The notes: generated by a model from the sequence alone, not told the origin. 64,000 bases of DNA from Hyphobacterium sp. CCMP332 (GCA_014323545.1 CP058647.1:1-64000), one strand, 5' to 3'. Positions 49,653-55,248 are shown, counted from the first letter of the stretch. Program-made: numbers and translations.

Positions 49653-50384
49653 TCAATGAGTTGTTACAAGGGGGGCAAAAGAGCTATTCATTTTGCTAAC
49701 CGAAATTTTCAAAGCATCTATCATTGCCATACAAAGGGTCTTTAATTCTTCAGTACCGGCGTATTTCTGATTGACTTCTATTTCAATTCCCATGTAGCAG
49801 TCGTCGGGAAATAATTTTCGTAAATGGGCCGTCAGGCCATCTTCAGCACCGGTATAGGGGCTATTGTGTAGGATCTTTTTTGATGGCAATTGTTTTTTAA
49901 GCTCATCTTCCCAAAAGGTACAGAGTACAGTTTCATGAGCTCTCAGTTCATCAAACAATAAACCGATGTCGACTCCGCGCTCTGTATCATTCCAATACGG
50001 TGTAAAAGTGTGAATGCTCAGATGCAATACCATGGCACGGTTAAAATGTTCCTTCACGTATTTTTCAACATTTTTACGATGCGGGTAATAATAATTATCC
50101 AGGATTTCTTTTTTACCTATTTCATCAAGTACTCCAGAAAACTCAGAAAATAAGTCCTTCCTATGCAAACTTCTGTTGCAATCGACAAGCAGACGGCTGA
50201 TTTCAGTTTCGAATAATTGAGCCTTGAAAGCCTCCTTAAATGTTTTAGCTATTTCTGCCGATCCAAAGTCTATACCCCGGTGACTGTTCAATGCTGCACC
50301 TGCAGATTCAAAAAGTGAAGCGTACTGTGCGGGTATTTCATTGCCCGAATGCTCTGAACTTATGACTAGCTGTACTGGACGCAT
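49653..50384 (-). CDS. N-formylglutamate amidohydrolase-like hydrolase
   Basis: 243 residues. Zinc-binding motifs of the family: SSEHSGNEIP near residue 10, HRGIDFGSAEIA near 35, and VLHLSIHTFTP near 118, then a MGIEIEVNQKYAG segment. In histidine degradation such enzymes cleave N-formylglutamate, but no hut genes are nearby. Here it is the last gene of the ATP-grasp/GCS2 operon and probably cleaves an amide made by, or related to, the ligases' product. It overlaps the GCS2 gene by 19 bases. Confidence 0.88.
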   Translation of the reverse strand: MRPVQLVISSEHSGNEIPAQYASLFESAGAALNSHRGIDFGSAEIAKTFKEAFKAQLFETEISRLLVDCNRSLHRKDLFSEFSGVLDEIGKKEILDNYYYPHRKNVEKYVKEHFNRAMVLHLSIHTFTPYWNDTERGVDIGLLFDELRAHETVLCTFWEDELKKQLPSKKILHNSPYTGAEDGLTAHLRKLFPDDCYMGIEIEVNQKYAGTEELKTLCMAMIDALKISVSKMNSSFAPLVTTH

Positions 50385-51622
50385 GGGTCAAATTGTTTGT
50401 TTTCTGGTAGGTTTTGACTCAATTCCTGATATATCAGTTTCAAATTATTTTCTGTATATACTGAATTGGCCACTTTTAGTATCCTGGAAGCCAAAGTCCC
50501 TTCCTCCAGAATAAAATTGAGGGTATCGTACCATGGTGATAAATCCTTTGGAAAATGCTTCATGCATATTTCCAAAAGGTCTTTCCAGAGATCTTTTACG
50601 GGCATCTTATCTTTGTAAATAGCAAAACATTGCAAATAGTCCGAATCTTCAATGATTGCATCAGAGCTATCGTTTATACATAGTTGCAGAATATCATAAA
50701 GTGAATTCGTATTCGCAGATTTTTGTGTTTCATATGAAGCTATCCTCTCTTCTGTTAATAGTTTGATCAAATGTATTAGCAATGAAGCAATGGCGAGATC
50801 TGCTTTTGGACATTCCTGTATATCGATAATTCGAATCTCAATAGAACCTCTGTCAAAACGGGAAATAATACCTCTTGAATTTAGCCAGACCGGTTTTAAT
50901 ATGCCATCATTATTGTAAGGCTTTACCTCCTCCTCAATCTTTTTATAAATTTTATCCTCGTAATCTTTTTCTGAAAGCATCAGATCCGGAATCACCATTG
51001 CGGTAAAACTCGGCATGCGTTTCTGGTTGTTTTGATAATATATTAAACGCTTGTCATGTACGCCTGAATAAGCTTTATCAAGTATTGGCGAACTTGCTGA
51101 TAATGAAGGTATTATTGGCAATACCAATCGACAAGCCGTATGCAATCTGGCAAACTCTTCATCATCAAAAAATGGCAAATTGATATGCATGCTTTGCAAA
51201 TTTGACCAACCGTGACCCGAGCAATCAAAGATTTTATTATAGCGCTCATAGACTTCCGAATTACCATGTGGCCATAGAAAAGTCTCTTTTTTAGGATTCA
51301 TCCAGGGATGTGCAGCTCCTGGCATCAATCGGGCATTGAATTTATTTTTTAATATGGTATTGATTTGTAGAATATTGCTCACAAAATCTTTCTCCATTTG
51401 GATCAAGTCTGTAATCGGTTTGGTGCATTTCAGCTCAATTACATGAAGAACCAGTTCATTAGAAATACTGATCGGACCATTTTCATAATCATCAACCAAT
51501 TCCCCTGCCAGTTCTTCCAATAATTTATCAGCTATTGGCATGACGTCAAGACTATCGCGGTTAACAATCATGTATTCCAGCTCTATGCCAAAACCTTCAA
51601 ATAAATGCATTTTATCTGCCAT
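50366..51622 (-). CDS. GCS2-family carboxylate-amine ligase
   Basis: 418 residues, of the YbdK/GCS2 glutamate-cysteine ligase-like family. Glu-rich metal/ATP motifs include FGIELEYMIV near residue 10 and VIELKCTKP near 62; then HINLPFFDD and GSIEIRIIDIQECPKADLAI. It should join an amino acid or amine to a carboxylate using ATP. The substrate is unknown. Classical glutathione synthesis is not supported because the partner is an RLAN-type ATP-grasp and not a GshB. Confidence 0.85.
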   Translation of the reverse strand: MADKMHLFEGFGIELEYMIVNRDSLDVMPIADKLLEELAGELVDDYENGPISISNELVLHVIELKCTKPITDLIQMEKDFVSNILQINTILKNKFNARLMPGAAHPWMNPKKETFLWPHGNSEVYERYNKIFDCSGHGWSNLQSMHINLPFFDDEEFARLHTACRLVLPIIPSLSASSPILDKAYSGVHDKRLIYYQNNQKRMPSFTAMVIPDLMLSEKDYEDKIYKKIEEEVKPYNNDGILKPVWLNSRGIISRFDRGSIEIRIIDIQECPKADLAIASLLIHLIKLLTEERIASYETQKSANTNSLYDILQLCINDSSDAIIEDSDYLQCFAIYKDKMPVKDLWKDLLEICMKHFPKDLSPWYDTLNFILEEGTLASRILKVANSVYTENNLKLIYQELSQNLPENKQFDPCVQYS

Positions 51623-53072
51623 GATCCCTGGATATTACGATATTCATTAAATGCTTCATAATGCTTTCATAAACTTCCATATTGCCCACCTTATCTTCGG
51701 ATCCTGAATCAATATTTGGGTTATCATTTACTTCAATGACATAGAAATTACCATTACTTTCCTTAACATCAACTCCATATAAACCATTTCCGATAAGTTT
51801 TGAGGCTTTTATAGCAAGCGATATTAATTTTTTTGGTGCCTGATCTATGGCTATGGTTTCTCCATTGCCCTCGCGATGTTCTGTTGCCGATTTCCATTCG
51901 ATGATCTGCCAATGGTTTCTGGCCATAAAGTATTTGCAAACAAAAAGTATTTTGCCATTTAAGACCCCTACTCTCCAATCAAAATCGGTAGGCATAAACT
52001 CCTGGGCAATGAGCAAATCGGTATTCTGAAAATACTCTTTTAAGAGCGCATCTCTTTCTTCCACATTTTCCACTTTCTTAACTCCTTTTGAAAATGAACC
52101 ATCGGGTAATTTTATCACAAATGGGAAAGCAAAACTTTCAATCTCCTTTATGTCGTTTTTGTGAAATATAAGTGATTTTGGTGTGGCTACATTATTAGCT
52201 CTTAGCAGTTCTTCCAAATAAACTTTATTAGTGCATTTTAATATGGAATTGGGATCGTCTATTACGGCCAGGCCTTCATGTTCGGCTTTGCGAGCAAAAC
52301 GAAAAGTATGATGGTTAACATTGGTGTTTTCACGTATAAAAAGGGCATCGTAATCGGTTATTTTGCCATAATCACTTTTACTTATAAAATCCGCATTAAA
52401 TCCGACGTTTTCTGCAGCTTTAACAAACTTCTGTAAGGCCCTGGCATCCGAAGGAGGGGTTTCATCACCCGGCTTTACCAATATGGCCAAATCGTATTTG
52501 CGGCGTTTGTAGTTTTTCCTTGATATATTTTTACCGCTGAGAAAACTTTCAAGTGATTTGATCAGGAAGTGATTGCTTTTTGCATCGAGATCCTTGAGGT
52601 TTATTGGCTTCAATGAATGCAATTGCCATTTTTCTTTTTTAATAAAAATGACCTGTTGTAAAGGCGTCTGAAAAAGATTGAACAACAAAATACCTATCCT
52701 CGATAAAGACGGATCCTCTGTTAGTCCAAAATAAACGGTAAACTCTACTTTTTCATTGTAACTGGACTTCTCCAATACTTCCTGAATCAGTTTGTCAAAA
52801 TCTTCTGCATCTTCTCTTGCCAGATTGGGCAATTTAAAATCCAAAAGTGTTGAAGTAACAGGAATTGATTTGTGGCCCCTTGCTTCTGCCAATAAAGAGA
52901 TATAATAGCCTTCACTCTGGTACTGATAGCTTTTACACAGATTTATAACCTTTACTTTTCTTTGTTTAGCATATTCCTCATTTGAAATATAATCCTGTGG
53001 TTTTATAAGCTGCACGCTATCAAGCTCAAGGTTCCATTTCTCCGGATGCTCAGTTACAACTATTCTATGCAT
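51612..53072 (-). CDS. RLAN / RimK-like ATP-grasp ligase
   Basis: 486 residues. An N-terminal alpha/beta region (1 to about 190) matches the RimK-like ATP-grasp N-terminal (RLAN) domain. The ATP-grasp domain (about 290-480) has FPFVIKLPDGSFSKGVKKVE in the ATP loop, and YGVDVKESNGNFYVIEVNDN with the Mg-binding Glu/Asn. RimK-like enzymes add amino acids to a carboxyl group in an ATP-dependent way. Its neighbours are a second ligase, a papain-like peptidase and an amidohydrolase. It overlaps GCS2 by 11 bases. Confidence 0.88.
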   Translation of the reverse strand: MHRIVVTEHPEKWNLELDSVQLIKPQDYISNEEYAKQRKVKVINLCKSYQYQSEGYYISLLAEARGHKSIPVTSTLLDFKLPNLAREDAEDFDKLIQEVLEKSSYNEKVEFTVYFGLTEDPSLSRIGILLFNLFQTPLQQVIFIKKEKWQLHSLKPINLKDLDAKSNHFLIKSLESFLSGKNISRKNYKRRKYDLAILVKPGDETPPSDARALQKFVKAAENVGFNADFISKSDYGKITDYDALFIRENTNVNHHTFRFARKAEHEGLAVIDDPNSILKCTNKVYLEELLRANNVATPKSLIFHKNDIKEIESFAFPFVIKLPDGSFSKGVKKVENVEERDALLKEYFQNTDLLIAQEFMPTDFDWRVGVLNGKILFVCKYFMARNHWQIIEWKSATEHREGNGETIAIDQAPKKLISLAIKASKLIGNGLYGVDVKESNGNFYVIEVNDNPNIDSGSEDKVGNMEVYESIMKHLMNIVISRDHGR

Positions 53073-53076
53073 TTAG

Positions 53077-53790
53077 TTAGGGTTCTATAACAAGCAAATT
53101 TGCATCATAAGTGACAATTCCTAAAAGAATTGAATTGATAACCCTTTGCACATCAATTCTATAATACTGAACGGAGTCTTTTATAGGATTTGGGTTTAAA
53201 GGATCGGCAATTCTACATTTTTTAGTTAGGTGATCATAATCGCTGATTACAACAAAATGGCCTGAAGGTTCACCCTTAGTATCATGATATACATTTAATT
53301 CTCCTATTTCCCTTTGGCTGTTGTAAAGATAGGTAGCGCTTAAACCACTTAGTATAGGTTTACCTTCAGAAAGTATCCTCTTGATGAGTGAGGGTCTCAA
53401 TTCTTCAAACCTGATCTCTCCTCCCATTTCAAGAAATTGCAAATATGCCTTGGTAGCTTGCCGGAGCTTTTTCGAATTTTTGTAAAACAATTGTTCCTTT
53501 AGCTTTTCAGATATATCAATATCTTTTGAAAACCAGGAAGGGTCGAATACATGTAAATTATAAGTATAAATACAGGCTTTATAGTTTCTTTTAAGAGCAT
53601 GATTTCCTAACATGACAGCTAATGTACCACCGTCTTTGAGTGTTTTAACGTCTTTTATCAAATCACTCAAGTCCATTTTATCACCATAATATGAATACAC
53701 AGCATGTAAACAAGTGGGTCCACAACTTTCATCGGTAGGTTGAGGTAAAATCTTTATATGTGCTTTCGTTTTTATTGAAGCTTCAGTCAT
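53077..53790 (-). CDS. Papain-like C39-type cysteine peptidase
   Basis: 237 residues, no signal peptide. The catalytic motif LPQPTDESCGPTCLHAVYSY has Gln17 (oxyanion) and Cys23; the probable His is in SGHFVVISDYD, followed by DPLNPNP with the Asp/Asn. It may trim or transfer a peptide, or act as a transglutaminase-like acyl transferase. It is the first gene of the four-gene operon, 4 bases before the ATP-grasp gene, with a candidate ECF promoter 22 bases upstream. Confidence 0.85.
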   Translation of the reverse strand: MTEASIKTKAHIKILPQPTDESCGPTCLHAVYSYYGDKMDLSDLIKDVKTLKDGGTLAVMLGNHALKRNYKACIYTYNLHVFDPSWFSKDIDISEKLKEQLFYKNSKKLRQATKAYLQFLEMGGEIRFEELRPSLIKRILSEGKPILSGLSATYLYNSQREIGELNVYHDTKGEPSGHFVVISDYDHLTKKCRIADPLNPNPIKDSVQYYRIDVQRVINSILLGIVTYDANLLVIEP

Positions 53791-53811
53791 ATTATTTTTA
53801 TTATTATAGCT

Positions 53812-53839
53812 ATGACGTTAAATGTGATCAAAAGTCACA
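53812..53839 (-). promoter_or_regulatory. Candidate ECF promoter of the ATP-grasp operon
   Basis: On the minus strand TGTGAC (53839-53834) is followed after 16 bases by CGTCAT (53817-53812). It matches the two similar elements at 49.6 and 55.3 kb. An overlapping inverted repeat, AATGTGA and TCACATT with a 7-base spacer (53821-53841), lies in the same 68-base divergent region. Confidence 0.55.
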
Positions 53840-53858
53840 TTGCTTTAAAAGTATTTAA

Positions 53859-54425
53859 ATGTCTGAATTAAGCGAAAAAGAATTGGTACTGGGGATGAAA
53901 GATGGCAAGTCGCGCTATTTTTCGCTGTTTACTGATAAATTCGAGACCTACATTTTAAAACGATGCAATAAATATGTTAAAGATACCGATACGGCCAAAG
54001 ACCTTGCGCAGGAAATTCTCATCAAGGTGTATTTGCAGATTCCCAATTTTCGCGAAGAAGCAAAACTCAGCACCTGGCTATATGCCATTATCCATCATAC
54101 CTGTGTAGATTATTTAAGAAAAAATAAGAAGAATGTTCATCGCGTATTAAGTGTAGAACTCAATGACAGCTTGATAGATGTGGTGGATTATGATGAAGAG
54201 CTGCCTGAAGAACTAAACATGGAAATTCTGGATGCATTTTTAAATGAATTAACGCCGGAAGGCAAATTGATTATTCTTTTAAAATACAAGGAAAAACATT
54301 CCATAAACGATATTCAGCAGAGTTTGGGACTTTCAGAAAGCGCAGTAAAAATGCGTTTGAAAAGAGCCAAAGATCTACTCAACAAGCTCTATTCTGAGAA
54401 CTTGAAAAAGATGAATAGAAATTAA
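53859..54425 (+). CDS. ECF-type RNA polymerase sigma factor
   Basis: 188 residues. Region 2 (about 20-95) has DTAKDLAQEILIKVYLQI and FREEAKLSTWLYAIIHHTCV; region 4 (about 125-180) has EKHSINDIQQSLGLSESAVK and RLKRAKDLL. No anti-sigma gene follows: the next gene is a convergent RMND1-like gene 1 base away. Regulation may therefore be by level or by a distant partner. Similar promoter-like elements around it suggest the flanking genes are its targets. Confidence 0.93.
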   Translation: MSELSEKELVLGMKDGKSRYFSLFTDKFETYILKRCNKYVKDTDTAKDLAQEILIKVYLQIPNFREEAKLSTWLYAIIHHTCVDYLRKNKKNVHRVLSVELNDSLIDVVDYDEELPEELNMEILDAFLNELTPEGKLIILLKYKEKHSINDIQQSLGLSESAVKMRLKRAKDLLNKLYSENLKKMNRN

Positions 54426-54426
54426 T

Positions 54427-55248
54427 TTATATTAATTTGCTAATAAGCGTATCCAATACTTCAATTACAATCAGTATGATAATTATCCATTCCAACCGAC
54501 TGCTTTCACGATGATGATTATAAGCAATGTAAAGATTCAAATTGTCTTCAATGATCCTGAAGGTGTTTTCTATCGATTGATAACGACTGCGGAGTTCAAA
54601 ATGTCTTGAAAGTGTTTTATGCAGTTTGTCAATGTACTCATCTTCCCATGTAATGTCGGGGCTATCGAGAATATAAAGGTTTTCAGCTATGCCGTTTTTT
54701 GCTGTAAGAGATTGCCCGGATAACCGAAGTGCCTCTTTGTGTTTTAATTTAATTTTTCCCGATTTACCGAGAATCAATGTAGAATTTTTAATTTCTTTTA
54801 GTATTTGCTGACTTAGAATACCATAATAATTAAGGCCAACCGATTGCGCTAAATTGAGCATTATGGCTTTGTTTATTTCATGATCAAAACGACCTATTGT
54901 TAAATAATCAAAAGTCATTTCAAACTGTCGGAAATCATTGCTCAAAATAATGTTGAGTTCATCAGAAAGAAATTCTGAAGCAGGGTTTTTGCAATAGAAC
55001 TTTGTTTTGTCGAGATGCAGTTTTATTTCATCCTCCGAAAAGCCGGCGAAAACAATCAGACCGTAATTTAAAATCAATAAGTATTGATCTTTGATTAGAT
55101 GATAATAAAGTTCAGAAGAATTGGATGAAATAAGGTGTTTATTATTGTTTTTTTTGTATTCTATTAAATCAATACTAGAGGCAATATTAAATGCTCTATA
55201 CTCAATTTCTCTTTTCTGAATTCCGGTGTTTTTTACAAGCGTTTCCAT
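54427..55248 (-). CDS. RMND1/DUF155-family membrane protein
   Basis: 273 residues. The DUF155 core is recognisable in LILNYGLIVFAGFSEDEIKL, FDYLTIGRFDHEINKAIML, YGILSQQILKEIK and SLTAKNGIAENLYILD. The protein ends in a single C-terminal membrane helix (RLEWIIIILIVIEVLDTLI). Homologues in mitochondria (RMND1) and yeast (SIF2/RMD) are membrane-attached; in bacteria the role is unknown. A candidate ECF promoter stands 40 bases before the start. Confidence 0.88.
   Translation of the reverse strand: METLVKNTGIQKREIEYRAFNIASSIDLIEYKKNNNKHLISSNSSELYYHLIKDQYLLILNYGLIVFAGFSEDEIKLHLDKTKFYCKNPASEFLSDELNIILSNDFRQFEMTFDYLTIGRFDHEINKAIMLNLAQSVGLNYYGILSQQILKEIKNSTLILGKSGKIKLKHKEALRLSGQSLTAKNGIAENLYILDSPDITWEDEYIDKLHKTLSRHFELRSRYQSIENTFRIIEDNLNLYIAYNHHRESSRLEWIIIILIVIEVLDTLISKLI

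Follow-up and report, generated by a model that had tools for sequence, protein, structure and literature searches.

Gene neighbourhoods in which a RLAN domain and a RimK-like ATP-grasp ligase occur with papain-like peptidases and with GNAT or GCS2 partners were reportedly predicted in 2009 by Iyer, Abhiman, Burroughs and Aravind (Mol Biosyst 5:1636), and the four-gene neighbourhood described here was probably noted by them. To our knowledge, Ngg is the one characterised GNAT/ATP-grasp enzyme of such logic. According to PMC8070244 (citing Sagot 2010), Ngg combines the N-acetylation of a glutamine with the joining of another, and PMC10318531 discusses DUF3335-GNAT fusions from Iyer et al. 2009. 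Our search of the literature, with the text of the 2009 prediction outside the comparison, found no paper on the function or product of the operon.

The window analysed here is a stretch of 64,000 nucleotides from Hyphobacterium sp. CCMP332, which belongs to a 3.33-Mb single-contig genome. On its minus strand, at 49653-53790, it carries four ORFs transcribed in the order C39/papain-like protein, RLAN plus RimK-like ATP-grasp ligase, GCS2 ligase and FGase-family hydrolase. The predicted features of the operon and its flank are:

53077..53790, minus strand: C39/papain-like cysteine amidase or transpeptidase, first gene (237 aa; PF13529, PF03412)
51612..53072, minus strand: RLAN plus RimK-like ATP-grasp amide ligase, second gene (486 aa; PF14401, PF08443)
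52560..52997, minus strand: RLAN domain of the second gene (PF14401, residues 26-171)
51696..52229, minus strand: RimK-like ATP-grasp domain of the second gene (PF08443, residues 282-459)
50366..51622, minus strand: GCS2-fold carboxylate-amine ligase, third gene, overlapping the second by 11 bases (418 aa; PF04107)
49653..50384, minus strand: FGase-family (N-formylglutamate amidohydrolase-like) amide hydrolase, fourth gene, overlapping the third by 19 bases (243 aa; PF05013)
53791..53858, no strand: intergenic region of 68 bases between the operon and the divergent ECF gene (from the sequence)
53859..54425, plus strand: ECF sigma factor, divergent, candidate regulator outside the core (PF04542/PF08281)
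54427..55248, minus strand: DUF155 (RMND1-like), optional companion, with the ECF gene between it and the operon (PF02582, 1.5e-29)

From 5' to 3', the junctions of the four ORFs are a 4-base gap, an 11-base overlap and a 19-base overlap. ORF calls and Pfam searches returned the coordinates and domain names that the initial annotation had assigned to the four genes, and the tight arrangement that it described was borne out. The operon promoter likely lies in the 68-base intergenic region, where a -35/-10-like pair is found at 53831-53803 on the minus strand, the count of such pairs not being clearly above that in shuffled sequences. This region (53791..53858) is too short to hold a carrier or precursor gene missed by annotation. 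A RiPP precursor or LysW-like carrier inside the operon was ruled out as well, since its genes leave no space between them and LysW is absent from the genome. The nearest RLAN relatives of the window protein are from Cytophagales, such as Roseivirga, Fulvivirga and Reichenbachiella.

The first protein matches PF13529 (2.5e-10) and PF03412 (2.9e-7). Residues Q17, C23, H178 and D196 do not vary among 36 homologues drawn from many phyla and, judged from the alignment, are the predicted oxyanion glutamine and Cys-His-Asp triad of a papain-type, C39/papain-like peptidase. In the same homologues the invariant residues reach well past the triad (e.g. Y156, R160 and E161). With the AlphaFold model (pLDDT 90.9), the best Foldseek matches were the PeiR endoisopeptidase, C39 peptidases, the PCAT/ComA proteases and the phytochelatin synthase Alr0975, and the structures of CtaG (closthioamide) and AziU2 (azinomycin) were also retrieved. 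The likeness to Alr0975 is at the level of fold only (TM about 0.4-0.5) and weaker than that to PeiR and the C39 peptidases. The predicted activity may be either hydrolysis or transfer.

The second protein carries RLAN (PF14401, 9.2e-44) and RimK (PF08443, 1.2e-12) domains in one polypeptide, the fusion that places it among the RLAN/ATP-grasp neighbourhoods. Across 19 homologues the nucleotide and metal positions of the ATP-grasp domain are kept, with K321, Q357, D435, E447 and N449 among the conserved set. The region of residues 381-402 has an invariant run of its own, Y381, M383, A384, H387, W388, Q389 and I390 (YFMA..HWQI), unlike RimK; therefore, specificity is not simply transferable from RimK. 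The structural model (pLDDT 80.6) is closest in fold to ArgX/LysX, Ddl and RimK, with about 300 of its 486 residues covered, and phmmer with the RimK-like domain matched RimK (7qyr/7qys), 5k2m (LysX/ArgX) and 4iwx. The Foldseek matches shown cover the ATP-grasp part only, and no solved structure was matched by the RLAN domain. Among phages, relatives were limited to two Yersinia phages with a distant ATP-grasp match (29% identity). In one locus (L085, genome G297) RLAN (207 aa) and ATP-grasp (298 aa) appear as separate ORFs adjoining a GNAT-C39 protein.

The third protein has the Pfam GCS2 fold (PF04107, 6.3e-17, 62.3 bits against a cut-off of 21), and hhalign aligned it to E. coli YbdK with 90% probability (E 1.6e-6). 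In 19 homologues the invariant positions are G12-x-E14-x-E16, N55-E56, E63, H146, R258, E262-x-R264 and D267, so that the G-x-E-x-E and R..IEIR..D motifs are kept. The match to models of canonical GCS2 enzymes is weak (63.4 bits against a cut-off of 371 for NF010039), and glutamate specificity is thus not transferable. The only other GCS2 protein of this genome lies outside the operon (L002, 1580387-1581076, 642 aa), and its C-terminal part resembles CBS repeats.

The fourth protein has the Pfam FGase fold (PF05013, 1.1e-18, 68.6 bits against a cut-off of 28.9) and keeps the invariants of the family: E11-H12, H35, D39, R64, N70-R71, H121, H125 and R136. Its nearest solved structure, 2odf, is an uncharacterised protein. 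The label of N-formylglutamate hydrolase-like gene given in the initial annotation holds as far as membership in the FGase family of amidohydrolases, but not as the HutG N-formylglutamate deformylase, which was ruled out (13.2 bits against a cut-off of 278.75 for TIGR02017).

Membership in described enzyme groups was judged by the curated cut-offs of NCBIfam. RimK, the S6 glutamate ligase, was ruled out (86.9 vs 143.4 bits, TIGR00768), as were LysX/ArgX (86.6 vs 275.6 bits, LysW being absent from the genome), GshA/YbdK/gshA_cyano (49.8/176.4 for the YbdK model TIGR02050, 30.5/249 for the gshA_cyano model TIGR02048 and 63.4/371 for NF010039) and CofF and MptN, whose curated cut-offs were missed. 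Synthesis of NAGGN by Ngg was also rejected: the window operon has no GNAT or AsnO, and TIGR03103 is missed even by a GNAT-type relative (34.9/569). That the ligases make a known compound, an objection foreseen in the initial annotation, finds no backing here, as no protein reaches the cut-offs of the glutathione, YbdK, RimK, LysX, CofF or MptN models.

RLAN loci (n=127) were collected both from genomes of the order and phylum to which the window belongs and from named genomes of a public collection. An adjoining GCS2 protein of the window subfamily was found in 96 of them, together with C39 in 84 and FGase in 65 of those 96, counts that vary slightly between tallies owing to overlap filtering. 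A GCS2 or GNAT partner is present in 121/127, and in the window C39 and GCS2 are adjacent to the ligase as operonic partners. The strand is identical for the members of the set throughout. Complete C39-RLAN-GCS2-FGase copies, on one strand and in the same order, number 58; they come from many phyla, and the median gaps between their genes are 0, -4 and -12.5 bases. The four-gene neighbourhood is not due to chance. Pairwise distances of the four proteins show a moderate correlation only (0.28-0.59).

Among 395 genomes of the phylum of the window, RLAN occurs in 44, the GCS2 subfamily in 30 and the C39 subfamily in 27, strictly nested; the nesting probabilities (~1e-34 for GCS2 within RLAN genomes and ~1e-38 for C39 within GCS2 genomes) ignore relatedness among genomes and hence overstate the independent events. 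The RLAN system is therefore patchy, in about a tenth of the genomes of the phylum, yet passed on, by inheritance or transfer, as a set. A lack of the RLAN and GCS2 pairing in relatives would have refuted the initial annotation; it is kept in the 96/127 loci, and the 30 GCS2 genomes are all RLAN-positive. GCS2-type loci carry about 14 phylum labels, among them Bacteroidota, Balneolota, Ignavibacteriota, Fibrobacterota, Planctomycetota, Acidobacteriota, Pseudomonadota, Thermodesulfobacteriota, Myxococcota, Nitrospirota, Omnitrophota, Spirochaetota, Tectimicrobiota and Uhriibacteriota, of which individual assignments may be wrong because many genomes are metagenome-assembled. Several hosts are marine, and others include Fibrobacter of the rumen and gut, Omnitrophota from groundwater and plasmids of soil Azospirillum.

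GCS2 and GNAT are alternative partners of the RLAN/ATP-grasp protein. GNAT is present in 25 of the 31 loci without GCS2, and no such GNAT lies nearby in 95 of the 96 loci with GCS2; the sole GCS2 locus with a nearby GNAT-like match (L108) has it in a separate upstream ORF. Among the 31 loci, GNAT is fused to RLAN in 16, at the N-terminus of a RLAN/ATP-grasp protein of about 650 aa; it is fused to C39 in 6, mostly Pseudomonadota, where a GNAT-DUF3335/C39 protein stands beside RLAN; it is separate in 3 and absent from 6. Two of these last six (L107 and L132) end at contig borders, and in L132 the first 24 residues of GCS2 are visible before the contig end. FGase was found in 65/96 GCS2 loci and in 0/31 of the others, none of the GNAT types having it, a restriction that ties FGase to the GCS2 product.

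In the RLAN/ATP-grasp tree, a GNAT clade of 14 rows (L152 and 13 fused proteins, 99% support) lies inside the GCS2-type rows, so the partners have been swapped, the direction of the exchange not being fixed by this midpoint-rooted tree. L121 and L161 each fall alone among GCS2 rows, where support is weaker. The mutual exclusion explains the absence of GNAT in the window, which has the standard GCS2-type architecture and no odd loss. Both traits that the initial annotation had called notable, the missing GNAT fusion and the presence of FGase, are real, but rather than odd they follow the general rule of GCS2-type loci (95/96 without GNAT; FGase in 65/96).

The GNAT half of a relative matched the Ngg model TIGR03103 weakly (6e-9, 34.9 bits against a cut-off of 569), and the GNAT domains score better to RimI, a protein N-terminal acetyltransferase, than to Ngg. 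Two arrangements read by eye are recorded here. In the Planctomycetota locus L139 (12751-14190) GCS2 and FGase are separated by a different protein, GNAT-like at its N-terminus and nitrilase-like at its C-terminus, and the Verrucomicrobia locus L152 (738-6270) has, in one direction, apparent argininosuccinate synthase, GNAT, RLAN/ATP-grasp, diaminopimelate-decarboxylase-like and dapA-like genes.

Regarding the flanks, no transporter, regulator or tailoring gene of a wider conserved cluster recurs past close relatives, save DUF155 and the divergent ECF gene (five Cytophagales loci). The ECF gene holds the same position in L017, L088, L089 and L093 as in the window. DUF155 lies directly upstream of the first operon gene, in the same direction and within about 45 bases, in 8 Cytophagales and 2 Sedimenticola loci (L015, L016, L018, L020, L094, L098-L100, L149 and L163), the two of Sedimenticola being of the GNAT-C39 type. 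In the window it is found 636 bases upstream of the operon, behind the divergent ECF gene. In the order of the window, DUF155 is present in 6/9 RLAN genomes vs 15/139 others (Fisher p 0.0003, relatedness ignored). We consider this association a lead, through which DUF155, of the RMND1 family of a human disease gene of unclear biochemistry, gains a candidate bacterial operon partner. In Pontibacter-type genomes (L014, L116, L117, L138 and L155) argE-/argH-like genes are located about 2-4 kb upstream on the same strand; arginine/lysine genes near the operon, in these genomes and in L152, were dropped as a substrate hint because they concern too few lineages. In two gammaproteobacterial MAGs (L157 and L166) the operon is followed at once by a small ORF that resembles Rieske-type iron-sulfur proteins. 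The GCS2/GNAT exclusion, the FGase restriction, the phylum spread and the DUF155 link are results of the present analysis, any of which may have been reported earlier.

The reading that we prefer, held tentatively, is that the operon may encode a non-ribosomal pathway to a short, N-capped, amide-linked peptide metabolite. Its basis is that a single conserved operon brings together two amide-ligase folds that depend on ATP and two hydrolase folds for amide bonds, with family-defining residues invariant. The GCS2 enzyme would activate a carboxylate with ATP, most likely the gamma-carboxylate of glutamate, and thereby cap the amino group of an amino acid X. A carboxylate would then be activated by the RLAN/ATP-grasp ligase and joined to Y through a second amide bond. 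The result would be a gamma-Glu-X-Y-like product, made by a glutathione-like logic of unrelated specificity; the cap could be aminoacyl instead. The papain-like enzyme would form an acyl-enzyme on the product, followed by trimming or by transfer to an acceptor, and its presence in both the GCS2 and the GNAT-C39 types would fit an action on the shared core. The FGase-type hydrolase may remove the cap made by GCS2 and recycle the parts. In GNAT lineages the acetyltransferase replaces GCS2 and would give an N-acetyl-X-Y product, as Ngg does for N-acetylglutaminylglutamine. The alternation of GCS2 and GNAT, the tie of FGase to GCS2, the precedent of Ngg, the fold likeness of the C39 model to Alr0975 and the lack of a precursor or LysW-like carrier also speak for this reading. 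Against it stand the weak match of the GCS2 protein to canonical enzymes, the ATP-grasp residues that differ from RimK, the better scores of the GNAT domains to RimI, which favour a protein target, the restriction of the Alr0975 likeness to the fold, and the moderate correlation of distances among the four proteins.

The exchange of GCS2 for GNAT suggests the same amine-acylating job for both, so that GCS2 would perform the amine capping done elsewhere by GNAT: one intermediate's amine would be acylated by means of ATP and an amino acid in one case and of acetyl-CoA in the other. The order of the reactions, the glutamate cap and the small-molecule target are those we infer. The initial annotation had proposed that the set could build and trim a small amide-linked metabolite or tag proteins; the building and trimming agree with the two ligase and two hydrolase folds and their conserved residues, and between metabolite and tag we lean to the small metabolite. 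A four-gene unit kept in some 14 phyla without an assigned product points to a common metabolite or modification awaiting description. Moreover, the GCS2/GNAT exclusion offers a handle, since both variants should share the acceptor and the core amide bond and one informs the other. In a bolder form, which we regard as rather unlikely, the GCS2-type operon would be a second widespread glutathione-like pathway making a novel gamma-glutamyl-capped tripeptide or conjugate in about 14 phyla, with an N-acetyl counterpart in the GNAT relatives and a papain-like enzyme that uses the product.

The main rival, somewhat unlikely in our opinion, is protein modification, in which the RLAN/ATP-grasp and GCS2 ligases would add amino acids to a protein and the papain-like and FGase enzymes would remove them, as a tag that is written and erased. 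Characterised GCS2 enzymes have small substrates, and the known substrate of the FGase family is a small N-acyl amino acid; these properties, the lack of any conserved gene for a target within the operon or close to it and the missed RimK model (86.9 vs 143.4 bits) argue against a tag. Nevertheless, the nearest relatives of the ATP-grasp domain (RimK, LysX and ArgX) have proteins as their substrates, RimI is the best-scoring match of the GNAT partners, the companion DUF155 is in the RMND1 family, linked to mitochondrial disease, and RimK/RimB is an established write-erase pair (PMC12239564).

A specialised metabolite, such as a signal or antibiotic, in whose synthesis the C39-like protein would act as a bond-forming transpeptidase and not as a peptidase, is less likely and seems improbable to us. 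Enzymes of the CtaG/BtrH type are bond-forming transpeptidases, and the Foldseek matches to CtaG and AziU2 and the C39 invariants past the triad are consistent with such a role, as is the presence of the ATP-grasp protein CtaD in the closthioamide cluster (PMC6772006). However, recurrent genes for a carrier protein, an exporter, resistance or tailoring are lacking, and a four-gene set found with few additions in some 14 phyla looks more like core than specialised metabolism.

A compatible solute similar to NAGGN appears quite improbable. The combination of GNAT, ATP-grasp and peptidase in related loci follows the logic of the NAGGN operon and several hosts are marine, but the operon lacks an asnO-like gene, scores fall far short of the NAGGN synthetase model, and the hosts from rumen, gut, groundwater and soil do not fit. 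Finally, that the operon conceals a known pathway, whether for glutathione, gamma-glutamylcysteine or ergothioneine or for the breakdown of histidine through HutG, is scarcely credible: the GCS2 and FGase folds are those of such enzymes, but the gshA_cyano, YbdK and HutG models are missed by the margins given above and the partner genes of those pathways are absent from the neighbourhood.

The preferred reading, a capped peptide metabolite, can be set against several described systems. In RimK/RimB glutamylation of S6 and in the RloABC operon, a RimK-like ligase shares its operon with a hydrolase that counteracts it (PMC12239564); unlike in the window, that hydrolase is an aspartic peptidase and neither GCS2 nor FGase is present. 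In the NAGGN operon asnO-ngg-peptidase, GNAT and ATP-grasp make an N-capped dipeptide and a peptidase gene lies alongside (PMC8070244), whereas the window locus has no AsnO-like gene and no GNAT, C39 replaces the glutamyl aminopeptidase and a RLAN domain is present. LysX/ArgX, which work with the LysW carrier, are the nearest solved folds to the ATP-grasp part, but the window genome is without LysW. Glutathione synthesis uses a GCS-fold ligase and then the ATP-grasp enzyme GshB, as in the reaction order proposed here, and Alr0975 is a papain-fold enzyme that forms an acyl-enzyme with glutathione; the window C39 protein is alike by fold only, the GshA/GshB models are missed and FGase is without counterpart there. 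The RLAN/RimK-like ATP-grasp neighbourhoods predicted in 2009 reportedly share the core of RLAN and ATP-grasp and have, as partners, a papain-like protein together with GCS2 or GNAT, and the window locus belongs to this already predicted kind of system.
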